From the NCBI GenBank assembly GCA_905182325.1, contig CAJJBD010000010.1, positions 1 through 44,801 of the forward strand: a DNA stretch of 44,801 bases, written 5' to 3'. Both the position numbers and the translations under genes were made by a program. This document shows, piece after piece, positions 24,160 through 43,909 of this stretch (position 1 is its first letter; each line of letters opens with the position of its first letter). This DNA comes from an uncultured Planktomarina sp. (GTDB taxonomy: Bacteria; Pseudomonadota; Alphaproteobacteria; Rhodobacterales; Rhodobacteraceae). The notes under the pieces were generated by a model that saw nothing but the letters and a program-made list of their open reading frames with translations, was not told the origin of the DNA and made no database searches.

Positions 24160-25470
24160 TTAATCCAAACTTAGGCCGCTGGGAACACTTTCAGGTATAC
24201 CAAGTTTACCCAAGACAGATGCCTTTCCAGTTAGGCTGCCAAGGAAACTTAATATATCAGAGATTTCAGCGTCTTTTAAGAAAATTGGGGAAATGTCTAC
24301 TTTGGCAGCTTGCCTGGCGATCTCAAGTGGATCAGACTGTACTACAAAATCTATACTTTCCAGCCAGGGAATGTTTGGCAAAGCAGCCATTTCTCGTCCC
24401 CACTTCAACCGCATACTTTTTGGATCCAAATGGTGGCGAACTATCCCCTCTAAAGTTGGATAGGCGCCATTATGGCCATATGGAGCGGTTAGAAGAATAT
24501 TACGGAGGCGTGGTGTTTTGAACCTATACGCATCCTCAATTTGGTCGCTTTCACCCATACGCCCAGTGTCGCGAGCTGCTGGATCAAATCGCCTAGTCCG
24601 ACCGGGACCAAAGGCTGGTAATGATAAAGCATAAAATTTTTGATCGCTGAATAAGGGTCCACTATGACAAGTGGCGCAACCGCCCTTACCAAAGAAAATC
24701 TTACGACCACGCTCTGCAGACTTTGGCAGGGCAATCTTGTCATTAACAAATTCATCATAGGCACTGTCGTAGCTTTGCCATTCAATATTTATAAAATCAC
24801 CCAATGCCTCAGCTATCTCAACGATAGTGACTTGTTCTGGTTCGTCTATATTATCGAAGGCTTCCACAAACATCTGGCCATACTCTGGTATTATTCTGAT
24901 CCTTTTTGCTAAAATGGGCCAAGCTGCATCAATTCTATCATGAATAGCTCCTGCAATTTCGTTTTCTTTAGGATTTCCTGCCATTTCAAACTGAGCGACA
25001 AGTGGAAAAATTGCCTGAGCTGAAATGACTGAATCCAAGCCAGCTGGAAGCCATTCCTGTGCAGGTGAGTTGAAACCGTTTTGATAGATATCACTTATTT
25101 CAAGACGACCATCATGAAATACTACTGTTATTGATTCGTGCCCTAAATTCCATAAAGAACTAGCATTTCGTGGTATCCGCTTACGGATTTTATTGGCGCC
25201 AACGCCCGCTATTCGCTCAGGCCCTAAACCAATTCCACCCTCACCAATCCCAAGGCTTAGTCCATCTGCACCACCGTGTTTGGGGTGGTGACATGTACTG
25301 CAACTTATATTGCGGTTACCAGACAGAATTTTATCATAGAATAAAAATTGCCCAATCTTTGCTTTTTTAGTATCGGCAGGCTGAAACTGACTTTGCAACA
25401 ACGGATACTGTTCGGCAGAAATAGGTAAAGCACTAAGGATAAGGAGAGTTAAAACATGTGGTACTTTCAG
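24160..25470 (-). CDS. Secreted di-haem cytochrome c peroxidase / MauG-like protein
   Basis: Periplasmic di-haem enzyme with two CxxCH sites: CSTCH (Cys57-His61) and CATCH (Cys265-His269), numbered from the chosen start. The first follows FYDKILSGNRNI, typical of the CCP/MauG family. A signal peptide (KVPHVLTLLILSALPISA) precedes the mature part. No ATG, GTG or TTG lies in frame at a sensible place. The best start is CTG at 25468-25470, giving 436 residues. The frame stays open to 25920, but that part is antisense to the Sel1 gene and not credible. The start therefore overlaps the divergent gene by about 15 bp. Whether it reduces peroxide or modifies a protein is not decided by sequence. Confidence 0.82.
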   Translation of the reverse strand: MKVPHVLTLLILSALPISAEQYPLLQSQFQPADTKKAKIGQFLFYDKILSGNRNISCSTCHHPKHGGADGLSLGIGEGGIGLGPERIAGVGANKIRKRIPRNASSLWNLGHESITVVFHDGRLEISDIYQNGFNSPAQEWLPAGLDSVISAQAIFPLVAQFEMAGNPKENEIAGAIHDRIDAAWPILAKRIRIIPEYGQMFVEAFDNIDEPEQVTIVEIAEALGDFINIEWQSYDSAYDEFVNDKIALPKSAERGRKIFFGKGGCATCHSGPLFSDQKFYALSLPAFGPGRTRRFDPAARDTGRMGESDQIEDAYRFKTPRLRNILLTAPYGHNGAYPTLEGIVRHHLDPKSMRLKWGREMAALPNIPWLESIDFVVQSDPLEIARQAAKVDISPIFLKDAEISDILSFLGSLTGKASVLGKLGIPESVPSGLSLD

Positions 25471-25965
25471 CCAAGACTTATAAGTGGATGTATTGCGATA
25501 CTCCTGAGCCTGATGGCTATCGTTATTGGATCGCCAGCCAATGCTGAGCTTGAGGAAGCACGAGACCTTATGGAGGATGGAAAATTTATTGAAGCGCGGG
25601 CTGCTCTTTGGCCAGCTGCACGCTCTGGGAATGCGGAAGCAGAAGAGTTGATTGGCGTGATGTATGCAATGGGTCTTGGAGTAGAACAGGACTACCAACG
25701 CGCATTTGAATGGTATTTGCGTAGCGCTATGAAAGGACACCCAGGGGCCCAGTCTGGGGTTGGTTGGTACTATGAAGTGGGCCTTGGAATGCCTTCGATT
25801 GACCTCACGCGCGCTTATCTGTGGTACGTTCTTTCTGCAATCGGAAATGATCCTGATGCTATGATAAGCCAAGAGGAGGTAGTTAAAAAAATGACAAAAG
25901 AGCAGATAGATAAAGCGCATATTTTAATCGATGATTACCGTGTTTGGCTCTATCCGTTTAGATAG
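25456..25965 (+). CDS. Secreted Sel1-repeat protein
   Basis: Small protein of 169 residues with a signal peptide (cleavage likely after SPANA, residue 30) and two to three Sel1-like helical repeats. The clearest is GVMYAMGLGVEQDYQRAFEWYLRSAMKG; the next is GWYYEVGLG with DLTRAYLWYVLSA. Sel1 repeats act as protein-binding scaffolds, and the partner is unknown. AAGGAG 9 nt before the ATG strongly supports this start, which lies inside the 5' end of the oppositely oriented peroxidase gene. Confidence 0.85.
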   Translation: MWYFQPRLISGCIAILLSLMAIVIGSPANAELEEARDLMEDGKFIEARAALWPAARSGNAEAEELIGVMYAMGLGVEQDYQRAFEWYLRSAMKGHPGAQSGVGWYYEVGLGMPSIDLTRAYLWYVLSAIGNDPDAMISQEEVVKKMTKEQIDKAHILIDDYRVWLYPFR

Positions 25966-26045: not shown

Positions 26046-27104
26046 TTATTTGATATCAGCGGCTCGACCTGCATCTAGGTCAGCTTCTGCTGCTGCAACC
26101 GCTGACGTTAAGGCACTAAATACAGCCTCACCGCCATCTACGTTTGACTTAAACCAGTCATAAACGGGTGCCGCAGCTTTTTTAAATGCAGCTTTTTCAC
26201 CTGGTGTTGGAACATATAGATCACCACCACCTGCAACAAAATCGGCATAGGCCTGAATTGACTTGCGTTTTGGTGATGCAAAAGTAGCTTGCTGTAATTG
26301 AGCAAATCCATCTACTATGATCGTACGGTGTCCAGCTGGCATTGACATAAATTTGTCATTAGACATCCACCAAAGTGCTCCCATGTATGCGTGACCGTCA
26401 AGTGTTACATACTGTAAGCCGGCATCAGGAAATTTCATGCCCATGATGTCAGTGATACCATTCTTAGAACCTTCAACTACACCAGTTTGGAAAGATGTGA
26501 ATAGTTCTGGCCATGGAATTGGAGTAGGTGACGCGCCAAGAGCTTTGACTAGTTCCTGAGGCAGGTCGGCCACAACAGTTCTAATTTTCAAACCTCCCAT
26601 ATCACTTGGACTTTGAACTCGACGTTTTGTGTTGGCAAAATTGCGCCATCCACCGGTGTTACCAATTGTCATTAGGCGAATTTTTCCACCTGAATTTTCC
26701 AACGCCATTTTTCGAACAGTACGAGTAAAATCACCAGATAGGACATGCTCTGCAACACGGTCATCTGCCATTAAGTAAGGCAAATCTAAGACCTGAACAT
26801 AAGGAAAAATTCCCGCTGCGCCGCCAGAAGTTGAAATGTAAACGTCTATCGAGCCATCAGCAACACCTTGCAGGCACTCAGCGCCCTTTGAGCAAAGCTG
26901 TGTGCCAATGAACAATTCGACTTCAATTGCCCCATTTGATGCACTTTCGACATAGTTTTTAAAAACAACAAGACCATCGTAGTCTTCGTCGTTCTCGTTT
27001 GAGTTCGCTGTAGCGCGAATTGTAAAATCTGCCGCTTGTGCTGAGATAGCACTAGCTGCAAGAATCGCCACCAATGTTAGTGACTTTATTGTACCTTTTA
27101 GCAT
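26046..27104 (-). CDS. dctP: TRAP transporter substrate-binding protein (DctP family)
   Basis: Periplasmic receptor of 352 residues with a signal peptide ending SAISAQAA (about residue 24). The DctP-fold signature GGLKIRTVVAD supplies the conserved arginine that pairs with an anionic group on the ligand. It also has the family segments GGWRNFANTKR, FQTGVVEGSKNGITD and ALWWMSNDKF. Two cysteines (CSKGAEC) may form a small disulfide loop. AGGGAGG lies 6 nt before the ATG. It is last in the operon with dctQ and dctM. An anionic substrate, possibly a sulfonated sugar given the neighbours, is inferred. Confidence 0.93.
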   Translation of the reverse strand: MLKGTIKSLTLVAILAASAISAQAADFTIRATANSNENDEDYDGLVVFKNYVESASNGAIEVELFIGTQLCSKGAECLQGVADGSIDVYISTSGGAAGIFPYVQVLDLPYLMADDRVAEHVLSGDFTRTVRKMALENSGGKIRLMTIGNTGGWRNFANTKRRVQSPSDMGGLKIRTVVADLPQELVKALGASPTPIPWPELFTSFQTGVVEGSKNGITDIMGMKFPDAGLQYVTLDGHAYMGALWWMSNDKFMSMPAGHRTIIVDGFAQLQQATFASPKRKSIQAYADFVAGGGDLYVPTPGEKAAFKKAAAPVYDWFKSNVDGGEAVFSALTSAVAAAEADLDAGRAADIK

Positions 27105-27135
27105 AATTTTCCTCCCTAGAGTGTTGCTGTTCAGG

Positions 27136-28425
27136 TTAGTTTACGAAACCGGTTAAACGCGGAATCGTCATCGAAATGGCTGGAATATAAGTTATCAAGA
27201 AAATAACAAATATTTCAACCAAAAGGAATGGAATAATAGCCCTAGCTATAGCTTCGACACGCTCTCCGGAAACGGATGAGGCAACGAAAAGAACTAGGCC
27301 CATTGGTGGTGTGGCTAACCCAACTGTCAAATTTACACTCATTATTATAGCAAAGTGAATAGGTTCGACACCCAAGCTAATAAATATTGGACCCAATATT
27401 GGACCTAATATGATAATTGCGGGACCGGCATCTAAAAACATTCCAACTACGAATAGTAAAATGTTTATCAAAAACAAGAGTACCAGCGGATTGTTAGATA
27501 ATGACACGATGTATACGGCTAAAATTTCTGGCGCATGACTGAGACTAACCACAGTTTTAAATGCCATTGCCGCTCCAACTAAAAGTAAAATTACTGACGA
27601 GGTCATTGCCGCCTTTGTTAGTACGCTTGGAAGGTCACTTAAACGAAGTGACTTCAGAACAAATAGCCCAATAAATGTAGCATAGCCTACGGCGACAGCT
27701 GCTGCTTCGGTTGGAGTAAATATACCACCAAGAATACCACCAAGTATAATAACAGGCGTTAATAATGGAAAAAATGCTTTTAAACTTGCGTGGCCCCTCT
27801 CATTCCATGTGTACTTAGCGCTAGCTACGGGAAAGTCATAGCGATCGGCCATTACTTTTACGGTTAACATTAAGCCAAGACCTACCATTACCCCGGGAAC
27901 AATACCTGCTAAGAAAAGTGCGGCCACACTCTCACCCATTACGTAAGCATAAATTATCATAATTCCAGAAGGGGGTATAATTGGTCCAATGACTGAACTG
28001 GCAGCCGTAATTGCAGCTGCAAACCGGCGGGTATAGCCCTGTTTCTCCATCGCTGGGATCAACATTGACCCTAGAGCTGAGGTATCAGCCACTGCTGAGC
28101 CAGACAGGCCTGCGAACAACATTGAAGATAGAATGTTGACGTGTGCTAAGCCTCCCCGCAGATGTCCCATCATTGCCTGCGCAAACTCTACAAGCCGACT
28201 AGTGATGCCAGCCCGGTTCATCAACTCGCCCGCGAGCATAAAAAATGGTATGGCCATTAAGGGGAAGCTATCTATACCATTATACACATTTCGATATAGC
28301 AAAGCGATGTCGCGCTCTTGACCGTTCATCCATAACAGAAGTCCTGGAGCGGCTAATAAACCAAAAAAAACTGGCAATCCAATAATGAGAAATATTAGAA
28401 ATAAAGGTAGAAACCAAAGTAACAT
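27136..28425 (-). CDS. dctM: TRAP transporter large permease (DctM family)
   Basis: Twelve-helix membrane subunit of 429 residues that couples uptake to a sodium gradient. Recognisable parts are GLPVFFGLLAAPGLLLW at the N-terminus, GIDSFPLMAIPFFMLAGELM, FAGLSGSAVADTSALGS, GPIIPPSGIMIIYA and, near the C-terminus, VNLTVGLATPPMGLVLFVAS. These are the conserved gate motifs of DctM. Its start overlaps the dctQ stop by one base (TGATG). Confidence 0.95.
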   Translation of the reverse strand: MLLWFLPLFLIFLIIGLPVFFGLLAAPGLLLWMNGQERDIALLYRNVYNGIDSFPLMAIPFFMLAGELMNRAGITSRLVEFAQAMMGHLRGGLAHVNILSSMLFAGLSGSAVADTSALGSMLIPAMEKQGYTRRFAAAITAASSVIGPIIPPSGIMIIYAYVMGESVAALFLAGIVPGVMVGLGLMLTVKVMADRYDFPVASAKYTWNERGHASLKAFFPLLTPVIILGGILGGIFTPTEAAAVAVGYATFIGLFVLKSLRLSDLPSVLTKAAMTSSVILLLVGAAMAFKTVVSLSHAPEILAVYIVSLSNNPLVLLFLINILLFVVGMFLDAGPAIIILGPILGPIFISLGVEPIHFAIIMSVNLTVGLATPPMGLVLFVASSVSGERVEAIARAIIPFLLVEIFVIFLITYIPAISMTIPRLTGFVN

Positions 28426-29006
28426 CAGTTCGCCCTATCAAGAGCAGGAATTGGCCTCAGGGTTACATTTTTATCCAACAGAATAAGAATTTGTCGGATT
28501 ATCATCTCAATATTGACTAAAATCATTAGCACTACCCCTGTTAAAATGGATAGATACATCCAGGCTAGCTTTAATTTAATCATTTTTAACCCAATTAAAT
28601 AAAGTGGAACTCTCAAAGATGAGCTGGAAAAAAGCCAACCTGATGTGACATGCTTCCACCCCAGTTGAACGGCTACGAACAACACGATTAGTGACGCGGT
28701 TGCCAATAAGATTGCCAACAAAGAAACACCTCGGTGTGGCAGGAATCTATGTAAAGTATCAATTGCTACAAAGCCGCTCTGTCTTAATGCTATGGGTGCC
28801 ATCAGACCGGTCAACCAAAGCATTAAGAAACGCGCAGCTTCGTCGGGCCAGGGTAGTGCGTTGTTTAATATATATCGACAAAATACCTGCAGCAAAATAA
28901 CAAAAACCATTAAGGCTAATGCAGTGACCGATATGTATCGACCAAACCTGCCAGCAAAATCGTTAAAAAGTTGCAAAGGTTTCAATATCTCGATCAAAAG
29001 CTTCAA
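28425..29006 (-). CDS. dctQ: TRAP transporter small permease (DctQ family)
   Basis: Four-helix membrane subunit of 193 residues. LQVFCRYILNNALPWPDEAARFLMLW is present in order (residues about 40-65), the hallmark of DctQ, as is GLMAPIALRQSGFVAIDTL. It starts at a TTG with no good ribosome site. It lies 40 bp after the aldo-keto reductase gene in the same orientation, so the whole LLM-AKR-TRAP set is likely one transcript. Confidence 0.9.
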   Translation of the reverse strand: MKLLIEILKPLQLFNDFAGRFGRYISVTALALMVFVILLQVFCRYILNNALPWPDEAARFLMLWLTGLMAPIALRQSGFVAIDTLHRFLPHRGVSLLAILLATASLIVLFVAVQLGWKHVTSGWLFSSSSLRVPLYLIGLKMIKLKLAWMYLSILTGVVLMILVNIEMIIRQILILLDKNVTLRPIPALDRAN

Positions 29007-29046
29007 GTTAATTTACAACTTTTTGTAACATGTTTTTGGTCCATTT

Positions 29047-29931
29047 TTAGGGTACCTCTTGTCCGTTAGCGGCACCGTAAATATCAAACCACGTTTCACG
29101 GCCCATCTCTAATTTTAGACACCGCGAAAGGTTTTTAATTCGGGCAAGTGAGTTGGTACCCATAACTGGGGCAATTTGTGCTGGGTGGGCTAGGAGCCAT
29201 GCAACTGCCGCCGCTGCCGCATCACCCTCTCCTACTTCAGTCAGAATTTTTAACAGCTCAGAATTATTTCCTGAGAAAAGTGCACCTCCTGCTAATGGTG
29301 ACCACGCCATTGGTACTTTGCTTCGCTCCTGTAAAAAGGCTAAGTCACCATTAGTCAGGGCGGAATTCTCGATTACACTAATTTCAATCTGATTGGTGAC
29401 TAATGGGTTTTTCATTGCAGATTGTAATAATGTCCAATCGTATGGCTTGAAGTTAGATACCCCAACACTCAAAACTTTTCCGGAAGCGATAACATCGTCT
29501 AATGCCTTGCCTGTTTCGTTATGGTCCATCAACGGATCAGGTCTGTGTATTAATAAAAGGTCGATGTGATCGATATTCATCAACCGCAAGGAGTGATCAA
29601 CCGAAGCTTGAATGTGTGCCGCAGAGGTGTCGTAATGTTTTACTTTTACGTTAGCGTACCGACCAGCCCCTACCAAAATATCGCATTTAGTTATTATTTC
29701 AATTTGATCTCGCAGTTTTGGAGATGACTTTAAAGCAGAACCAAGAAGTTCTTCTGCGAGATAGCCGCCATAAATGTCTGCCTGATCAATGGTGGTAATT
29801 CCCTGTGACAAACAAGTCTCAATTTTTTCCTGAACATGCCCGGGAGCTGTGTTTGAATCGTCTCCCAATCGCCACATGCCATATATTAGGCGGCTGATTG
29901 ATAGGTTTTGAGTAAGAGAAATACGTTCCAT
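29047..29931 (-). CDS. Aldo-keto reductase, YdhF-like (candidate SmoB-type 6-oxo-glucose reductase)
   Basis: NADPH-dependent aldo-keto reductase of 294 residues. The catalytic tetrad is visible: Asp49 and Tyr54 in DQADIYGGY, Lys82 in TKCD, His129 in LLIHRPDPL. The N-terminal RISLTQNLSISRLIYGMWRLG, split by family-typical spacing, and the terminal AANGQEVP are of the YdhF subgroup. SmoB, which reduces 6-oxo-glucose to glucose in sulfoquinovose breakdown, is an aldo-keto reductase of this general type as I recall. The start overlaps the monooxygenase stop by one base (TAATG), so the two are tightly coupled. The specific substrate is inferred from the neighbours. Confidence 0.85.
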   Translation of the reverse strand: MERISLTQNLSISRLIYGMWRLGDDSNTAPGHVQEKIETCLSQGITTIDQADIYGGYLAEELLGSALKSSPKLRDQIEIITKCDILVGAGRYANVKVKHYDTSAAHIQASVDHSLRLMNIDHIDLLLIHRPDPLMDHNETGKALDDVIASGKVLSVGVSNFKPYDWTLLQSAMKNPLVTNQIEISVIENSALTNGDLAFLQERSKVPMAWSPLAGGALFSGNNSELLKILTEVGEGDAAAAAVAWLLAHPAQIAPVMGTNSLARIKNLSRCLKLEMGRETWFDIYGAANGQEVP

Positions 29932-31088
29932 TATTTACGAAATCCGTTTCCTAAGGGGGTTGCAGGGATATCTGAAGGCACGCGGCCATACTCATGGGGA
30001 AGTGAACAAGTCTGCAATTCAGGTAATATCAATTTACCTACATAGTCACATTCTTCGAGGTGTGGGTAGCCTGAAAAGATAAAAGACCGCATTCCCATTT
30101 TTTGATACGATTCAATTTCTGACAGAATCTGGTCAGCAGATCCCACTAATGCCGCACCGCAGCCAGATCGAGCGCGACCTACGCCAGTCCAAAGATGCGG
30201 CTCAATAAATCCATCCATATCTGCCAAACTCCGATTGCGAGACTGACGTGATACTCCAAACGAACTACTATCAAGCGCCCGCTCACGTATCAAACTACCA
30301 GTATCATCATCTAATTTGGATACTAATTCTCGCGCAAACTCTCGTGCTTCCACCTCAGTATCTCGCACAATCATATGTACTCGTAGCCCATAATCCAGAG
30401 TTCTGTTATGGGCTTCTGCCTTATTGTTTACTGCGATCATCCTATTTGCTAAGTCGTCTTTTGTCTCTGGCCACATTAGATAGACATCGCAATGCTCGGC
30501 ACAAAGCTCAATGGCATCTGGTGAGTAGCCTCCAAAATATAAAAGAGGGCCACCATTTTGCTGATAGGGTCGAGCTGGTTCCGTACTCACGCCCTGGAAA
30601 TTGTAAATAACTCCCTCAAAGTCAATCTGATCTTGGGTCCAAGCTTGCTTTAGTATCTGTACAACTTCTCTTGATCTTTGATAGCGATATGAGCTTGGCT
30701 CTTTTTGACCAGGAAAGTCAGATGAAATTATGTTAAGTGTGAGCCGGCCCTTAAGCATGTGATCTAGAGTAGCCACCGTACGTGCCAGCATGATTGGATG
30801 CATTTCACCACAACGTATGGCGGCAAGGAGATTGATGTTTTCAGTGATTGGTGCGCAGCCCGCCACGAAAGATAATGTGTCTTGCCCCACCTGATAAGAT
30901 GATGGGCAAAGGATATTACGAAATCCGTTTGCCTCAGCGGAAGTAACAATTTTACTACAATGTTCCCAAGAAGATCTAAGCCTACCATCCGGTATTCCAA
31001 GGTATTCATAATCATCAGAGCACAACGCGGAAAACCACGATACTTCGGTGGTATTTAGACTGGCAGAAGTGATGGGTACCAGCGTCAT
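29931..31088 (-). CDS. FMNH2-dependent alkanesulfonate-type monooxygenase (SsuD-like; candidate SmoC-type sulfoquinovose monooxygenase)
   Basis: Luciferase-fold monooxygenase of 385 residues. It shares SsuD hallmarks: EYLGIPDG near the N-terminus, LLAAIRCGEMHPIMLARTVATLD, PLLYFGGYSPDAIELCAEHCDVYLMW, LRVHMIVRDTEVEA, LWTGVGRARSGCGAALVG and FIFSGYPHLEE. SsuD-type enzymes cleave a C-S bond with O2 and reduced flavin, releasing sulfite and an aldehyde. Pairing with an aldo-keto reductase that would reduce a sugar aldehyde points to an SmoC-like role. No flavin reductase is in the window. It is first in the operon, divergent from gntR. Confidence 0.85.
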   Translation of the reverse strand: MTLVPITSASLNTTEVSWFSALCSDDYEYLGIPDGRLRSSWEHCSKIVTSAEANGFRNILCPSSYQVGQDTLSFVAGCAPITENINLLAAIRCGEMHPIMLARTVATLDHMLKGRLTLNIISSDFPGQKEPSSYRYQRSREVVQILKQAWTQDQIDFEGVIYNFQGVSTEPARPYQQNGGPLLYFGGYSPDAIELCAEHCDVYLMWPETKDDLANRMIAVNNKAEAHNRTLDYGLRVHMIVRDTEVEAREFARELVSKLDDDTGSLIRERALDSSSFGVSRQSRNRSLADMDGFIEPHLWTGVGRARSGCGAALVGSADQILSEIESYQKMGMRSFIFSGYPHLEECDYVGKLILPELQTCSLPHEYGRVPSDIPATPLGNGFRK

Positions 31089-31100
31089 AACAGCGTGCGA

Positions 31101-31116
31101 GAATTCAATTGCATTC
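31101..31116. promoter_or_regulatory. Imperfect palindrome, candidate GntR operator
   Basis: The 16-bp sequence GAATTCAATTGCATTC is a near-perfect inverted repeat centred on CAATTG, with a single mismatched base pair (14 of 16 bases symmetric). It lies 13-28 bp upstream of the monooxygenase start, in the 85-bp gap shared with gntR. A position between divergent genes suits repression of the operon by the adjacent regulator. This is inference from position and symmetry. Confidence 0.45.
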
Positions 31117-31132
31117 GAGTATTAAAGCTCGC

Positions 31133-31161
31133 ATCAATGGGTAAATCAATGGTGTATCAAT
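31133..31161. repeat. Triple ATCAAT direct repeat near the gntR start
   Basis: ATCAATGG occurs at 31133 and 31145, and ATCAAT at 31156. Spacings are 12 and 11 bp, close to one helical turn. The array lies just upstream of the gntR TTG start and could be a second binding site for an activator or for the regulator itself. Chance is possible in AT-rich DNA. Confidence 0.35.
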
Positions 31162-31173
31162 TTAGAGAAATTT

Positions 31174-31887
31174 TTGAAACAAACTAGTAAAAAACCTGGC
31201 GCATTGCCCGCTTATATACAGATCAGTGAGGTTGTTGCCCGGCGTATAAATGCTGGGCAGATATTAGTTGGTGAGCGTCTCCCAAGTGAACGGGTAATGG
31301 CCGTAGAGTTTGGTGTTGCTGTTGGAACATTGCGTAAAGCCCTGTGTGAGTTGCAATCCCAAGGATTTCTTATTCGAAAGCATGGCTCTGGAAATTATAT
31401 TAAAAAAGCAACAGAGGCTACAAACGTGTACTCGTTTTTTAGTCTTGAATCTATTGTTGGAGCAGGGCTACCAACCGCCCAATTGATCTCTATAAATAGG
31501 CAAAAAAAACCCTTAAACACTCCTTATTTTGGGCCTGATCAAGAGGCATTTTGCTTTCGCAGACTACGATTTTTAGACGACTGCCCTGCAGCACTAGAAG
31601 AGATTTGGCTTGATGGATCAGTTGCTTCAACACTTGACCAACAGGAGATTTCAGAATCTCTTTACCACACCTACCAATCACGGTTTGGATTTTGGATTGT
31701 GCGTGCCGAAGATCATGTGAGCTTTTCCCCAGTTCCAGATTGGGGGGTGGATCAATTTGGTTTGAAACCTGGTGATACTGCAGGCTATGTCGAACGAATC
31801 GCTTGGGCAAATACCGGTACTGCACTTGAGTTTTCGCGCAGTTGGTATGATCCAAAAGTCGCAAAATATGTTGCGCGAATTAAGTAA
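31174..31887 (+). CDS. GntR-family regulator, HutC/UTRA type
   Basis: DNA-binding regulator of 237 residues. The N-terminal winged helix (about 10-75) has PAYIQISEVVARRI, GERLPSERVMAVEFGVA and RKALCELQSQGFLIRKHGSG. The C-terminal UTRA domain (about 90-235) has FCFRRLRFLDDCPAALEEIW and the closing LEFSRSWYDP segment. UTRA domains usually sense small sugars or sugar derivatives. The start is TTG with a weak GAGAAA site. It is cotranscribed with the dehydrogenase gene 9 bp downstream and divergent from the monooxygenase operon it probably controls. Confidence 0.9.
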   Translation: MKQTSKKPGALPAYIQISEVVARRINAGQILVGERLPSERVMAVEFGVAVGTLRKALCELQSQGFLIRKHGSGNYIKKATEATNVYSFFSLESIVGAGLPTAQLISINRQKKPLNTPYFGPDQEAFCFRRLRFLDDCPAALEEIWLDGSVASTLDQQEISESLYHTYQSRFGFWIVRAEDHVSFSPVPDWGVDQFGLKPGDTAGYVERIAWANTGTALEFSRSWYDPKVAKYVARIK

Positions 31888-31896
31888 GGAAAGTTA

Positions 31897-32985
31897 ATGA
31901 CCCTACACTACGGATTAATAGGCTGCGGAATGATGGGGCATGAGCACATTCGAAATATTGCCTTGCTTGATGATACAGAGATTTCAGTGATTTATGAACC
32001 TGATCCAGAAATGCGAGTACTTGCCTTAAAAACTCTACCAAAGACAAAAATTGTAGATACTTTATCTGCGCTTCTTGAGCATAATCCCCTAGACTGCTTG
32101 GTAATTGTCAGCCCCAATTACTGCCACATGGGCCAATTGAAAGAGATAGCACAATCGCGACCACTACCAATTTTATGTGAAAAACCGCTCTATGCTGATG
32201 CAAGAGATTTGACCGCTGCTGAGGAATTTTCCCAGAAATATAAATCTTTAGTGTGGGTAGCAATGGAGTACCGTTACATGCCGCCAGTGGCAGCATTTAT
32301 AGACCGAGCTGCAGAGACAACTGGGGGAATAAAAATGCTCACAATTCGTGAGCACCGCTTTCCATTTTTGCCAAAGATTAATGACTGGAACAGGTTTAAC
32401 AAAAATACTGGTGGAACTTTAGTCGAAAAATGCTGTCATTTCTTTGATCTTATGCGACTTGTACTTCGCTCCGATCCAATACGAATAATGGCAAGCGCTG
32501 GACAAGAGGTTAATCATCTAAATGAATCATACAATGGTGAATACTCTGATATTTGGGATTGTGGTTATGTGATTGTAGATTTCGCTAATGGTTCACGTGC
32601 AATGCTAGAGCTCAGCATGTTTGCAGAGGGATCAGAATATCAAGAAGAAATACATGCAGTGGGCCCCAAGGGAAAAATTTCTTGCAAGGTACCGGGCCCA
32701 ACGCGTTTTTGGCCTGAGCACATGTCCAAACCTCCTGTACCACATTTAATTTTAAGTCCACGAAGCCCAATGGCTCCCAGCAGGATAGATACTGTTGTCC
32801 CTCCTGAGCTCTTAATTGCAGGTGATCATAATGGATCTACCTTTTACCAGCATGAAAAATTTCAGGCAGCTATTTTAGGTAAAAAATTACCAGAAGTAAG
32901 TGTTCAAGATGGGATTTGGGCCGTTCGGATGGGTATGGCTGCTCAGGCGTCAGCTATTGAGAAAACAGTTATAGAGCTCAAATAG
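31897..32985 (+). CDS. Gfo/Idh/MocA-family NAD(P)-dependent dehydrogenase (candidate NAD-dependent sulfoquinovosidase)
   Basis: The 362-residue protein has the Rossmann loop GLIGCGMMGHEH (residues 6-17), the catalytic-type EKP motif CEKPLYAD (Lys96), and GGTLVEKCCHFFDLMRL with His181. The fold handles sugars and inositols by hydride transfer at a carbinol. Members of this superfamily also act as NAD-dependent glycosidases by oxidation-elimination, including sulfoquinovosidases of family GH188. In a cluster that lacks a GH31 sulfoquinovosidase this is a plausible role, but an ordinary sugar dehydrogenase cannot be excluded. AAGGAAAG precedes the ATG. Confidence 0.87.
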   Translation: MTLHYGLIGCGMMGHEHIRNIALLDDTEISVIYEPDPEMRVLALKTLPKTKIVDTLSALLEHNPLDCLVIVSPNYCHMGQLKEIAQSRPLPILCEKPLYADARDLTAAEEFSQKYKSLVWVAMEYRYMPPVAAFIDRAAETTGGIKMLTIREHRFPFLPKINDWNRFNKNTGGTLVEKCCHFFDLMRLVLRSDPIRIMASAGQEVNHLNESYNGEYSDIWDCGYVIVDFANGSRAMLELSMFAEGSEYQEEIHAVGPKGKISCKVPGPTRFWPEHMSKPPVPHLILSPRSPMAPSRIDTVVPPELLIAGDHNGSTFYQHEKFQAAILGKKLPEVSVQDGIWAVRMGMAAQASAIEKTVIELK

Positions 32986-33116: not shown

Positions 33117-34259
33117 CTAATCACGGCCCTTTACACCATCCCAAAAACCTTTGACTTTGTTAAAAAAGCCAGCGCTTTCGGGACTGTTGTCAGGAGACAG
33201 TTCTTCAAATTCTTTAAGCAGCTCTTTTTGTCTGGCAGTAAGGTTTACTGGTGTTTCCACTTGCAATTCTATGAACATGTCACCGAGTGCCCCGCCGCGG
33301 ACTGCAGGCATGCCCTTGGAGCGTAGTCGCATTTGACGACCCGTCTGACTACCAGCAGGAATTTTTACACGGCTTCGACCACCATCAATACTCGGTACTT
33401 CAATATCACCACCTATTGCGGCAGAGGTCATGGACACGGGTATCCTGCAAAATAAATTTGTACTTTCCCGTTCAAATATTGAGTGATCATCTACTTCGAT
33501 AAATATATATAGATCACCTTTTGGTCCCCCAAGGGTTCCAGCTTCACCCTCGTTTGACAAACGGATACGCGTCCCAGTTTCCACACCAGATGGAATATTA
33601 ACAGAAAGCGACCGTTCTTTTTCTATCCGGCCTGCGCCTCGACAACTAGAACAAGGGTTTTTGATTACTTGCCCAGCCCCAGAGCAAGTAGGACAGGCGC
33701 GTTCAACAGTGAAAAAGCCCTGTTGGGCACGTACCTTGCCCATACCAGCGCATGTACCGCATTTACTGGGCTCAGTACCGGATGCTGCACCAGAGCCACC
33801 ACATGGCTCGCAAGATACCGCAGTTGGAACATTAATAGTTTTTTGTTGGCTTTTGTATGCCTCTTCCAGCGTGACACGCATATTATAGCGAAGATCAGAA
33901 CCTCGACTTGCTCTTTGTCGACCGCCTCCACGACTGCCACCCCTAAAATCACCAAAAAGGTCGTCAAACACATCAGAAAACGCATTTGAAAAATCACCCT
34001 GCCCACCAAAGCCGCTGGGACGGCCACCACCGCCTTCGAAAGCGGCATGTCCGTAACGATCATAGGCAGCCTTTTTATCGTTATCTTTTAAAACCTCATA
34101 AGCTTCGTTAGCTTCTTTGAAGAGATCCTCAGCCTTTGGGTTTTCAGTATTGCGATCGGGGTGCAGCTCTTTGGCCTTTGTACGATAAGCCTTTTTGATC
34201 TGGTCCGCGTTCGCGCCCTTGGCAATTCCAAGCGTTTCGTAATAATCACGTTTAGACAT
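33117..34259 (-). CDS. dnaJ: Chaperone protein DnaJ
   Basis: Hsp40 co-chaperone of 380 residues. J domain with HPD (about residues 33-35, KELHPDRN), Gly/Phe-rich region (about 75-115), four CxxCxGxG zinc repeats (CEPCGGSG, CGTCAGMG, CPTCSGAG, CSSCRGAG) and the C-terminal substrate domain with RIRLSNEGEAG. It stimulates the ATPase of DnaK, encoded just upstream, separated by a 73-bp gap holding a terminator-like hairpin. Confidence 0.98.
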   Translation of the reverse strand: MSKRDYYETLGIAKGANADQIKKAYRTKAKELHPDRNTENPKAEDLFKEANEAYEVLKDNDKKAAYDRYGHAAFEGGGGRPSGFGGQGDFSNAFSDVFDDLFGDFRGGSRGGGRQRASRGSDLRYNMRVTLEEAYKSQQKTINVPTAVSCEPCGGSGAASGTEPSKCGTCAGMGKVRAQQGFFTVERACPTCSGAGQVIKNPCSSCRGAGRIEKERSLSVNIPSGVETGTRIRLSNEGEAGTLGGPKGDLYIFIEVDDHSIFERESTNLFCRIPVSMTSAAIGGDIEVPSIDGGRSRVKIPAGSQTGRQMRLRSKGMPAVRGGALGDMFIELQVETPVNLTARQKELLKEFEELSPDNSPESAGFFNKVKGFWDGVKGRD

Positions 34260-34280
34260 TTGGCCTGTCCCCTTTGGAAC

Positions 34281-34310
34281 AAAAACCAGCCAATTTTATA
34301 AATGGCTGGT
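34281..34310 (-). terminator. Intercistronic hairpin between dnaK and dnaJ
   Basis: On the minus strand the stem ACCAGCCA / TGGCTGGT (8 bp, 10-nt loop) is followed by TTTTTG. It lies between the dnaK stop and the dnaJ start, so it would lower dnaJ expression relative to dnaK by partial termination or RNA processing. Confidence 0.7.
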
Positions 34311-34332
34311 CTTAATTGGTTCCTATTTGGCG

Positions 34333-36240
34333 TTAGCCGCGCTTATCGCCATCCAAGTCTTCAAAGTCAGCATCAAGAATATCATCATCCATAACTGCTC
34401 CTTCATCGACGCCACCAGCGGCCTCAGCTTCTTGACTTGACTTATATATTGCCTCGCCCAGCTTCATTGCCGCTTCTGTAACGTTTTGGATGCCAGATTT
34501 TATTTTCCCTGCATCTTCGTTTTCTAACTCATCATTCAACGCTGCTATGGCGAGCTCAATGGCTTCAACAGTAGTTGGGTCAACTTTATCGCCATGCTCC
34601 TCCAATGACTTCTCGGTTGAGTGAATGAGGCTTTCTGCCTGATTTCTGCTCTCAACCAACTCTTTACGGTCTTTATCAGATTCAGCATTTTCTTCTGCAT
34701 CTTTAACCATCGCGTCAATATCTGAATCACTCAAACCACCCGATGCCTGGATAGTTATTTTTTGTTCTTTTCCAGTGCCTTTGTCGCTCGCTCCAACTGA
34801 GACAATACCGTTGGCATCAATATCAAACGTAACTTCAATTTGTGGCATGCCTCGTGGTGCTGGCGGGATTTCTTCTAGGTTGAACTGCCCTAAGATCTTA
34901 TTATCCGCCGCCATTTCACGCTCACCTTGAAAACAACGTATCGTCACTGCGCTTTGACTGTCTTCAGCTGTTGAGAACACCTGCGATTTCTTTGTTGGTA
35001 TGGTGGTGTTTCTATCTATTAAACGGGTAAATACTCCACCCAGGGTCTCGATTCCCAAAGAGAGTGGCGTGACGTCTAGTAGAACAACATCCTTCACGTC
35101 TCCCTGTAGCACGCCAGCCTGAATAGCGGCGCCCATAGCAACAACTTCATCTGGGTTAACACCTTTGTTAGGCTCTTTACCAAAGAATTTAGTGACTTCT
35201 TCTATTACTTTTGGCATTCGCGTCATGCCGCCAACCAAAACAACTTCATCAATATCCCCAGTTGAGAGACCCGCATCTTTCAAGGCGGCCTGGCAAGGCT
35301 TTAATGAAGCTTTGATCAGATCCCCAACTAAGCTCTCTAGCTTCGCCCGGGTTAATTTTACAACAAGGTGTAGGGGCTGGCCTGATGAGCCATCCATTGA
35401 AATAAATGGTTGGTTAATTTCTGTTTGGCTTGAAGAGGAGAGTTCGATCTTTGCCTTTTCGGCTGCCTCTTTGAGCCGCTGCAAGGCCATTTTATCCTTT
35501 TTAAGATCCACCCCATTTTCTTTTTTAAACTCGTCTGCAAGATAATTAACTATGCGCATATCGAAGTCTTCACCACCGAGGAATGTATCACCATTGGTGG
35601 ACTTTACTTCAAACAGGCCATCATCAATTTCCAAAATAGTGACGTCAAAGGTACCGCCTCCAAGGTCAAAAACGGCAATTGTTTGTGTTTCTTTTCTATC
35701 TAAACCATAGGCTAAAGCTGCGGCTGTTGGCTCATTAATGATCCGCAGAACTTCAAGGCCAGCGATTTTACCGGCATCTTTAGTTGCTTGTCTCTGTGCA
35801 TCATTGAAATAGGCTGGAACTGTAATTACGGCTTGCTCGACAGCCTCGCCAATGTAGGCCTCAGCAGTTTCCTTCATTTTCTGTAAAATGAATGCTGATA
35901 TTTGAGAAGGTGAGAACTTATCCCCCTGTGCTTCAACCCAAGCGTCTCCATTCCCACCGTTAATCACGGTGAAAGGAAGGTTTTTCATATCTTTTTTCAG
36001 GTGAGCATCATCATATCTGCGCCCAACTAATCGCTTCACGCCAAAGACGGTATTGTCTGGATTTGTAACGGCCTGCCGCTTTGCTGGCTGACCCACCAGC
36101 CGTTCATCATTTGTAAAAGCAACAATTGAAGGTGTCGTGCGTGCACCTTCCGCATTTTCGATTACCCTTGGCTGTGATCCATCCATAATGGCGACACAAC
36201 TGTTGGTAGTTCCAAGATCAATCCCAATGACTTTTGCCAT
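34333..36240 (-). CDS. dnaK: Chaperone protein DnaK (Hsp70)
   Basis: Hsp70 chaperone of 635 residues. The nucleotide-binding domain has [13 protein letters not shown] at the N-terminus, [17 protein letters not shown] and [13 protein letters not shown]. The linker region with [16 protein letters not shown] is followed by the peptide-binding domain and helical lid, and the tail is acidic ([10 protein letters not shown]). It is upstream of dnaJ. No clear sigma-32 or CIRCE site could be assigned in the 151-bp gap to alkB; a bulged inverted repeat lies at about 36308-36337. Confidence 0.99.
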
Positions 36241-41994: not shown

Positions 41995-43455
41995 CTATGC
42001 TTTTGCCAATAGGCTTTCCACTCGGGCGATTTTTTCGTCTTTTTCATAGAGATCAAAATAACCTGAATTCATGAGGTGTGGCGGGCCAAAGAAAAATCTC
42101 TCATATAAGGCTTGCCTACTCCCAAAGCCTGAGACTGAAATATCATGTGCTAGCCGATACAAGCCCACTCTATCTCTACTATCCATATGAGTTAGCTGAA
42201 AGTATTTTAAGATATCGCCTTCCATTTCGTTACTAAAATCTGCTTCGGTGGGGGTTGCCATTAGGGATGAGGAACCTAAAAGCTGCAAAATTTCTACCAT
42301 TCGGGGGTACATTTTTGGAAACAGGTTGCGCGATGTATCTAGAGGGCTGCGCAACGGGATGAAATTACCCCAATGGTCCTCATGTGCCTGCTGTTCTGCT
42401 GAGAATAGTAAGGCGCGAACGGTCTCTACCATCATCATCACTTCTGAAATCATAATCTTGGTCGCAAGATCTTTGTCTCGTCCTGTCGCTTTTGCAATTG
42501 CGCACATTATGCCAACCATGAACTCAGCTTTTGCTAATTTTCCACAGGCAACTTGATGGGCCATATGAACGATTGCGTTTGTGGTGTTAAATGCTTGGTT
42601 GCACAGACTTGGCTCCCCATACATAAAAATACGTTCCCAGGGCACAAATACATCCTCGAAAATCACTACGGCATCCATTTCTTCGTAGCGTGACGACAGG
42701 GGCGCATCAAAGTGTGACTTACCGTGATCATAAGAGTCCCGGCAAAGTAATTTTAATCCAGGAGTTGCTATTGGAATTGCAAAGGCAAATGCGAATGGAA
42801 TATTGCTGGGGTCAGCTCTCAAGACGGTGGAGGGAAATACCTCTATCTCGTCTGCAAGTGGGCCTAGAGTTGCAAGCAATCGTGCGCCCTTCACTATTAT
42901 TCCAGCATCGCTCTCCTTTACTACATGCAGGGCAACCTCTTGATCAAATTTACCAGTATTAAACTGAGCGTGTGAAACTGAAGGGTTAATCAAAGTGTGA
43001 GTTAGGATTTTGTCGTTCAGTCTTACCTCGTCATAATAATTGACCATATTCTTAGCGAAGTCAGCTTGACCAACAGTCCCTTGCGCAAGAAAATCTGGTG
43101 CATGGGCAAACGCCATCAAAGAGGCATTTTTGTAATCTGGGGTGCGGCCAAACATACCATTTGACCATTTTGCCCACTCATAAAATGCACAGCCTCGACT
43201 TAGAACGTCTTCTTTTGTTTTTGGAGCCATATGGGATTTAGCGCATCGGATCCCGTTGGCATCTAGATAAGTCACGTTATCTCGATAAGCATCTTCATGC
43301 TGGCGATCGAGAAAGCCAGCTAAGGAGGCTGCGCCACCACTAATGCCAGGCTCAATTGTTACGTCTTTTACGCGGGCGCCACGGGTCCAAATTTCACGAT
43401 CATCGCGCAAGCCATGGAGATATTCAGCTCCTGTCCTAATTCCAGCGTTTTTCAT
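41995..43455 (-). CDS. hpaB: 4-hydroxyphenylacetate 3-monooxygenase (HpaB/PvcC family)
   Basis: FADH2-dependent phenol hydroxylase of 486 residues with the acyl-CoA-dehydrogenase-like fold. Family segments are MKNAGIRTGAEYLHGL at the N-terminus, THTLINPSVSHAQ, SDAGIIVKGARLLATLGPLADEIEV, and VVIFEDVFVPWERIFMYGE. It would convert 4-hydroxyphenylacetate to homoprotocatechuate using a separate flavin reductase. It lies one base after a MarR-type regulator gene in the same direction. Nearby HpaF-like and FAH-family genes favour this substrate, though related enzymes hydroxylate other phenols. Confidence 0.85.
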   Translation of the reverse strand: MKNAGIRTGAEYLHGLRDDREIWTRGARVKDVTIEPGISGGAASLAGFLDRQHEDAYRDNVTYLDANGIRCAKSHMAPKTKEDVLSRGCAFYEWAKWSNGMFGRTPDYKNASLMAFAHAPDFLAQGTVGQADFAKNMVNYYDEVRLNDKILTHTLINPSVSHAQFNTGKFDQEVALHVVKESDAGIIVKGARLLATLGPLADEIEVFPSTVLRADPSNIPFAFAFAIPIATPGLKLLCRDSYDHGKSHFDAPLSSRYEEMDAVVIFEDVFVPWERIFMYGEPSLCNQAFNTTNAIVHMAHQVACGKLAKAEFMVGIMCAIAKATGRDKDLATKIMISEVMMMVETVRALLFSAEQQAHEDHWGNFIPLRSPLDTSRNLFPKMYPRMVEILQLLGSSSLMATPTEADFSNEMEGDILKYFQLTHMDSRDRVGLYRLAHDISVSGFGSRQALYERFFFGPPHLMNSGYFDLYEKDEKIARVESLLAKA

Positions 43456-43456
43456 A

Positions 43457-43909
43457 CTAAACCCTATTCCCTGATGCTACTACTGAGGTTGTTTTGTGCC
43501 CATTCAATTTGTCTAAAATACGGTTTAGTTCACCCCACTCTTCAGGTGTGACTTCCTGCATAAATTTGTCGTGTATCTGTTCTATTTTTGGCAGCATTAG
43601 CTCTTGAAGTTCACGGCCGGCCTGTGTGGGCACAATGTAGACGAGCCGTCGATCTTCAATGGATCGAAGGCGACCAACGAAGCCTTTTTTTTCGAGCCTA
43701 TCTAGTATTCCAACCAGTGATGGCGATGGAAGAAGTGTGATTTCTGATATTTGCTTTGATGTGAGGTGTTTTTGTTCCCAAAGCGCTCGCATTACCCGCC
43801 ACTGCTGGTCGGTAATCGCGTGCTCCTGAAACAAAGTGCGATATACCGGCATAATTCCGTCGAGGGCTCGGCTAAGTATCATTGGTAAGCTATCAAGAAA
43901 TTTGGGCAT
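43457..43909 (-). CDS. hpaR: MarR-family regulator, HpaR-like
   Basis: Winged-helix regulator of 150 residues with DQQWRVMRALWEQKHLTSKQISE, the recognition helix region LLPSPSLVGILDRLEKKG and the wing SIEDRRLVYIVPTQAG. HpaR proteins repress the homoprotocatechuate operon and respond to its aromatic intermediates. It is cotranscribed with hpaB and divergent from hpaF; a perfect palindrome lies just before its start. Confidence 0.88.
   Translation of the reverse strand: MPKFLDSLPMILSRALDGIMPVYRTLFQEHAITDQQWRVMRALWEQKHLTSKQISEITLLPSPSLVGILDRLEKKGFVGRLRSIEDRRLVYIVPTQAGRELQELMLPKIEQIHDKFMQEVTPEEWGELNRILDKLNGHKTTSVVASGNRV

Follow-up and report, generated by a model that had tools for sequence, protein, structure and literature searches.

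Does a Planktomarina-type plankton roseobacter carry genes for using sulfoquinovose (SQ), the sulfolipid sugar? The question was raised by a 44,801-nucleotide stretch of DNA (the window), contig CAJJBD010000010.1 of assembly GCA_905182325.1 from an uncultured Planktomarina sp., in which a preliminary description had placed a cluster resembling that of the sulfoquinovose monooxygenase (sulfo-SMO) pathway at 29047..32985. The analysis supported this reading, and the locus is very probably a sulfo-SMO cluster for SQ catabolism. The open reading frames (ORFs) claimed for this interval were all found there and were as follows.

29931..31088, minus strand: predicted SmoC, SQ monooxygenase dependent on reduced flavin mononucleotide (FMNH2), 385 aa (identity to 7oh2, tree, AlphaFold2 fold; Pfam Bac_luciferase)
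29047..29931, minus strand: predicted SmoB, aldo-keto reductase (AKR) that would convert 6-dehydroglucose to glucose, 294 aa (identity to 7bby, Pfam Aldo_ket_red; function by analogy with SmoB)
31897..32985, plus strand: predicted SqgA, NAD+-dependent sulfoquinovosidase of the glycoside hydrolase family 188 (GH188) type, 362 aa (GH188 structures, contact residues; Pfam GFO_IDH_MocA)
31174..31887, plus strand: GntR/UTRA regulator, divergent from SmoC (PF00392 and PF07702)

The matches to Bac_luciferase, Aldo_ket_red, GntR plus UTRA, and GFO_IDH_MocA all exceeded the Pfam gathering cut-offs. The TAATG overlap of the monooxygenase and AKR genes was confirmed on the minus strand (letters CGTAAATAATGGAACG). 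The UTRA regulator beside the monooxygenase was confirmed as well.

Enzymes of the cluster

SmoC of the window shared 75.3% identity with 7oh2 over 384 residues, compared with 34.2% for SsuD and 35.7% for MsuD. End-to-end alignment gave 676 bits with 7oh2 and 673 bits with 7olf, against 192–195 bits with SsuD/MsuD; the PDB titles of 7oh2 and 7olf name an FMNH2-dependent monooxygenase for the oxidative desulfurization of SQ. The AlphaFold2 model built from a 26-row alignment had a pLDDT of 84.8 and 7oh2 as its top PDB match (TMq 0.89); a single-sequence model with a pLDDT of 35 was discarded. The phylogenetic tree comprised 27 rows, with 23 SmoC rows and an outgroup made up of two SsuD sequences, an MsuD, and an SfnG. 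The window protein, 7oh2, and 7olf were placed in a single 16-row SmoC clade with support of 99/99, and the branching with SsuD, MsuD, or SfnG that the preliminary description had named as counting against it was not found. The 23 SmoC rows were split from the outgroup at 91/91, a split where the program flagged long outgroup branches that may mislead. These comparisons strongly support a predicted role of the protein as the SQ monooxygenase SmoC, which would cleave the C-S bond.

SmoC belongs to the same luciferase-like superfamily as SsuD and MsuD, and its best NCBIfam match was the alkanesulfonate monooxygenase TIGR03565 (236 bits, under the cut-off of 518), so the cluster might instead serve SsuD/MsuD-type scavenging of alkanesulfonates for sulfur supply. 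However, SmoC shared 75% identity with the SQ enzyme but 34–36% with SsuD/MsuD, the tree separated the two groups, and the neighbours of SmoC were of the GH188 and SmoB types; alkanesulfonate scavenging was thus considered extremely improbable.

The AKR shared 60.8% identity with 7bby, which we take to be SmoB of Agrobacterium tumefaciens (the PDB file names only an aryl-alcohol dehydrogenase), and 43.6% with YdhF. In the AKR tree, a 14-row clade including 7bby left out YdhF, with support of 96/97. The data support the prediction that this AKR is SmoB, which would reduce 6-dehydroglucose to glucose.

The Gfo/Idh/MocA protein had been read as a sugar-type dehydrogenase. This was ruled out by its similarity to GH188-type structures: it scored 478 bits with 8zn9, 343 with 8qc3, and 339 with 8qc2, against 60 bits with inositol dehydrogenase; identity to 8qc3 was 49%. 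According to the structural passages of PMC10755693, ArSqgA contacts the sugar through K107, Y136, E189, H193, and H321 and the sulfonate through R166, L170, and K172. Mapped through 8qc3, which was assumed to be ArSqgA, at an offset of 13, the sugar contacts were kept in the window protein as K96, Y125, E177, H181, and H311 and the sulfonate contacts as R154, L158, and K160, giving 8/8 of the positions checked. Residue E163, as numbered in those passages, had no match at offset 13 and was excluded from the comparison. A GH188-type NAD+-dependent sulfoquinovosidase is thus the strongly supported prediction for this protein, and because it is of the GH188 type, the divergent pair would consist of a regulator and a sulfoquinovosidase. 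Since SqgA would depend on NAD+ and no signal peptide was visible by eye, SQ glycosides would be imported intact.

The same residues bear on whether the substrate is another 6-sulfo-hexose or sulfosugar glycoside rather than SQ or SQ-glycerol. The substrate ranges of SmoC and DctP (below) are not readable from sequence, and other sulfosugars exist, such as the sulfofucose mentioned in the available text of PMC12421959. However, all eight GH188 contacts seen with SQ were kept in SqgA and SmoC was 75% identical to enzymes titled SQ-desulfurizing, which makes a different sulfosugar highly unlikely.

Operon extent and the flavin reductase gap

The interval 29047..32985 held the four genes described for it, but the operon was longer: 40 bases past 29047 it resumed on the minus strand with the subunits of a tripartite ATP-independent periplasmic (TRAP) transporter, DctQ-DctM-DctP (26046–29006).

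29007..29046: site of SmoA (PF01613 flavin reductase) in most TRAP-type relatives; empty here, 40 bases
28425..29006, minus strand: TRAP small permease subunit DctQ (PF04290, 80.7 bits)
27136..28425, minus strand: TRAP large permease subunit DctM (TIGR00786, 427.6 bits)
26046..27104, minus strand: TRAP solute-binding protein DctP, proposed to bind SQ/SQ-glycerol (PF03480 and gene context)

Conservation was investigated in 149 genomes that sampled the window's family evenly (genomes and loci are numbered G and L). SmoC (E ≤ 1e-100) was present in 61 of them, counting the genome of the window. Out of the 60 other SmoC loci fetched, 55 with at least 7 kb downstream were kept and five shorter ones were dropped. 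These 55 loci contained GntR (54), SmoB (52), GH188 (51), SmoA (48), and TRAP/DctP downstream (35), and GntR was found in 59 of the 60. Because the grouping was conserved across the family's SmoC loci, it was not due to chance; it was retained over many genera. In a separate set of 56 loci, the full TRAP was located downstream of SmoC in 25, 23 of these with SmoA. Some organisms occur in both sets (L001–L056 and L089–L148), L006 and L090 being one such case, and the counts of the two were not summed.

Within the window and L001/L002, dnaJ/dnaK adjoined the cluster (33117–36240 in the window), while other genes flanked it in L003–L005 and L050, so that Planktomarina-type genomes hold the cluster at two or more chromosomal sites. 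SmoC relatives with 58–73% identity and different neighbours occurred in L039, L044, L046, L047, L049, L051, and L052, metagenome-assembled genomes (MAGs) labelled Thermoanaerobaculia, proteobacterium, Deltaproteobacteria, Anaerolineae, and Saprospiraceae. A scan of 30900–31300 found no promoter-like site (0.7 expected) and one terminator-like site (0.4 expected), which lay within the GntR gene. Elsewhere in the window, an HpaB-type 4-hydroxyphenylacetate 3-hydroxylase gene was next to a MarR regulator gene (41995–43909).

The 40-base gap held no SmoA ORF. SmoA was present in 33/35 TRAP-type loci of the family, and none was found beside SmoC in the fetched stretches of the window, L003, L004, L005, and L089; at the SmoC locus of L050 there was a SmoA-like stretch of 110 aa. 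The same-genus genome G045 (L089) had the cluster without TRAP and SmoA in its fetched stretch. Genome-wide, the best SmoA relatives had 33–37% identity in G000 (the window's genome), G045, G150, and G151, and G149, the genome of L003, encoded a 46% relative on another contig. Because G000 is 78% complete, a SmoA gene could have been missed. Since the dedicated SmoA is absent from the cluster, another flavin reductase would have to supply FMNH2. The part of PMC13372026 that defines its counts takes SmoB plus SmoC as sufficient for a sulfo-SMO-positive genome.

The gap could also mean that the cluster is nonfunctional without SmoA, decaying, and heading for loss. The five stretches without SmoA and the 110-aa stretch in L050 are in line with decay, as are L211 and L212, which retained TRAP, SmoB, and SmoA with no SmoC seen. 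However, the other cluster genes were open frames, and SmoC was 85–88% identical to the window's in seven Planktomarina-type loci, Planktomarina being its nearest named relatives. The L003 genome carried its SmoA relative elsewhere, and a review notes sulfo-ASMO clusters without SsuE that presumably rely on other reductases (PMC9594981). Decay is very unlikely on this evidence.

The TRAP transporter and the proposed route

The sulfo-SMO reading leaves the question of how the substrate enters the cell. DctP (E ≤ 1e-100) was found in 54 of the 149 genomes, 40 of which had SmoC, and 52 of the 54 had a GH188 relative (E ≤ 1e-60). Ten of the 14 DctP genomes without SmoC encoded a FucI-type isomerase, a PfkB kinase, and GH188. 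This set adjoined TRAP in nine (G015, G007, G064, G129, G001, G059, G057, G074, and G099), whereas in G014 it was on a contig other than that of TRAP; DctP identity was 72–86% in the nine TRAP-adjoining genomes. A DeoC/LacD aldolase belonged to eight of the nine TRAP-adjoining sets, and none was found for G059 and G014. The SmoC-less loci with TRAP, GH188, FucI-type isomerase, and PfkB were L179–L182, L185, L194, L210, L213, and L215, and all but L194 had the aldolase. The sole NCBIfam match of the L194 isomerase was NF048012, sulfoquinovose isomerase (285 bits, cut-off 700). Among 116 SmoC loci, which are both locus sets side by side and overlap in organisms, the same enzymes were matched once (isomerase), 0 times (kinase), and 0 times (aldolase). 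The SmoC-less clusters were inferred to be like those of a second sulfo-Embden-Meyerhof-Parnas pathway (sulfo-EMP2-like). The other four DctP genomes without SmoC (G040, G126, G048, and G143) look like SmoC-less remnants; the GH188 relative of G126 was on another contig. TRAP was also kept with some of SmoB, SmoA, GntR, and GH188, and with no SmoC seen, in L211, L212, L214, and L184.

Because the same DctP adjoined GH188, isomerase, and kinase genes in SmoC-less genomes, the transporter appears to follow the substrate and not the enzyme. The occurrence of the same transporter and glycosidase with two different routes is the best evidence for TRAP as the carrier of SQ/SQ-glycerol, and it suggests that DctPQM may import SQ or SQ-glycerol. 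The PDB relatives of the window DctP included an isethionate-binding DctP (95 bits) that ranked below four without a named ligand; the ligand is therefore not readable from the PDB matches. Repeated exchange of DctP between pathways was considered but not adopted: the DctP tree of 72 rows (78 less six duplicates) needed six changes, and its well-supported branches forced only one. The LacI and ABC binding-protein neighbours in L003, L005, and L089 were not accepted as an SQ transporter; they presumably represent an alpha-glucoside (agl-type) operon.

In the proposed route, DctPQM would import SQ and/or SQ-glycerol, and cytoplasmic SqgA with NAD+ would release SQ, a step strongly supported by homology. 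With equally strong homology support, SmoC with FMNH2, provided by another flavin reductase, and O2 would cut the C-S bond to give sulfite and 6-dehydroglucose. SmoB would then reduce 6-dehydroglucose to glucose, as homology supports, and a glucokinase, which is present elsewhere in the window's genome, would pass the glucose to glycolysis. The GntR/UTRA protein is probably an SQ-responsive repressor.

Several points weigh against the sulfo-SMO reading. The enzyme activities were inferred from sequence and the TRAP substrate was assigned from gene context. The window's genome, at its 78% completeness, had only distant PF01613 proteins, the best with 33% identity. This TRAP was absent from 20/55 sampled SmoC loci, 13 of which matched none of four ATP-binding cassette (ABC) probes, with seven matching one. 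L091, with SmoC and TRAP, was without GH188, SmoB, or SmoA in its fetched stretch.

The haem-protein pair and related systems

Behind the TRAP genes, two further genes were located.

24160..25470 (start approximate), minus strand: MauG-like di-haem c protein (TIGR03981, two CXXCH)
25456..25965, plus strand: Sel1-repeat protein (PF08238), encoded divergently from the MauG-like gene; by eye, its N terminus resembles a signal peptide

The listed MauG-like ORF had 586 aa and extended to 25920. Because this frame runs antisense into the Sel1 gene, the true start is probably near 25470. The protein resembled MauG, MbnH, and HxsX-associated di-haem proteins in its two CXXCH motifs and in its matches to TIGR03981 (238 bits, cut-off 340), TIGR04039, and TIGR03791. 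It differed from them in remaining below all curated cut-offs, including that of MauG (98 bits against 443.85), and in having a Sel1-repeat protein as its neighbour.

The MauG-like gene was present in 18/35 TRAP-type SmoC loci of the family. Sel1 (E ≤ 1e-20) was found in 37/149 genomes; all 37 had this DctP, and 0/95 DctP-negative genomes had Sel1 (Fisher p 3e-22), in a test on related genera of one family that was uncorrected for shared ancestry or co-transfer. Among SmoC-positive genomes, Sel1 occurred in 26/40 with DctP and 0/21 without. The MauG-like protein (at least 50% identity) was present in 37/37 Sel1 genomes and in 39/149 overall. Distant MauG paralogues (<50% identity) had a weaker association with DctP (36/77, p 0.007). 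Sel1 was no more than 5.6 kb from DctP in 30/37 genomes; in the other seven it was not within 6 kb, with three on other contigs and four at about 13, 22, 441, and 634 kb. The pair was also found behind DctP in Oceanospirillaceae and a Hyphomicrobiales MAG (L042, L043, L054, and L009).

For the Sel1 and MauG alignments, identical rows, stop-containing rows, and MauG rows with <50% identity were removed. In 52 non-identical Sel1 rows, W86, Y87, W104, Y105, Y106, Y121, W123, Y124, Y161, W164, and Y166 were conserved at 95% or more. This Trp/Tyr-rich composition invites the idea of Sel1 as a possible target of MauG-type modification. A tentative and, in our view, rather unlikely extension is that TRAP (DctPQM), Sel1, and the MauG-like protein form a portable sulfosugar-uptake module common to the SMO and EMP2-like pathways. 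In such a module, the periplasmic di-haem enzyme would modify the aromatic-rich Sel1 by peroxide-driven Trp/Tyr chemistry, as MauG or MbnH does, and the product would be needed for sulfosugar uptake or use.

The pair may instead be an unrelated neighbour merely travelling with the TRAP genes. It lies outside the operon with Sel1 on the opposite strand, 17/54 DctP genomes were without Sel1, G025 and G097 had a MauG-like protein (50–54%) without DctP or Sel1, and the counts carry the limits of ancestry and co-transfer given above. Against this stand the presence of DctP in every Sel1 genome, the distribution of Sel1 among SmoC-positive genomes, and the persistence of co-occurrence in the 7/37 genomes where the pair was not within 6 kb of DctP. 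Mere travelling is a realistic possibility that falls somewhat short of probable.

Compared with the sulfo-SMO (sulfo-ASMO) system of A. tumefaciens, the window shared SmoC and SmoB orthologues and hence the predicted order of C-S cleavage, 6-dehydroglucose, and glucose, with sulfite. It differed in having TRAP subunits instead of an SQ-glycerol ABC importer, in the absence of SmoA from the cluster, and in the replacement of the A. tumefaciens sulfoquinovosidase, presumably of GH31, by GH188. The sulfo-EMP2-type clusters of the SmoC-less relatives had the same TRAP and GH188, and mostly the Sel1/MauG-like pair; instead of SmoC/SmoB they carried a FucI-type isomerase, a PfkB kinase, and in most cases an aldolase.

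Kaur et al. (2023, PMC10755693) describe GH188 as near-universal in the sulfo-SMO clusters of roseobacters; the window shared SmoC, GH188, and the clade with these clusters and differed from them in having no SmoA. The GH188 SqgA of Arthrobacter AK01 is linked there to sulfo-EMP, whereas that of the window is linked to SMO genes. Sulfo-SMO in roseobacters is also stated in part of PMC13372026, and together with GH188 in part of the review PMC12890257. The words 'TRAP' and 'transporter' had 0 occurrences in the main text of PMC10755693. In the literature searched, no paper linked SQ to this TRAP or MauG protein, and none was found that paired SQ with Planktomarina or with a TRAP transporter plus monooxygenase; Liu et al. 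(2023) was outside this literature, and no claim of a first report is made.

The core of the locus, sulfo-SMO with GH188 in a roseobacter, is thus already known; the locus departs from the known kind in lacking a SmoA gene and in encoding a TRAP instead of an ABC importer. The link of Sel1/MauG with DctP is its most novel part, and the locus draws attention to a haem-protein pair tied to a TRAP transporter. The TRAP is proposed as a marine marker for the uptake of SQ or SQ-glycerol. For a Planktomarina-type plankton roseobacter, the cluster would provide a genetic route to the sulfolipid sugar that lacks the flavin reductase gene usually found with it.

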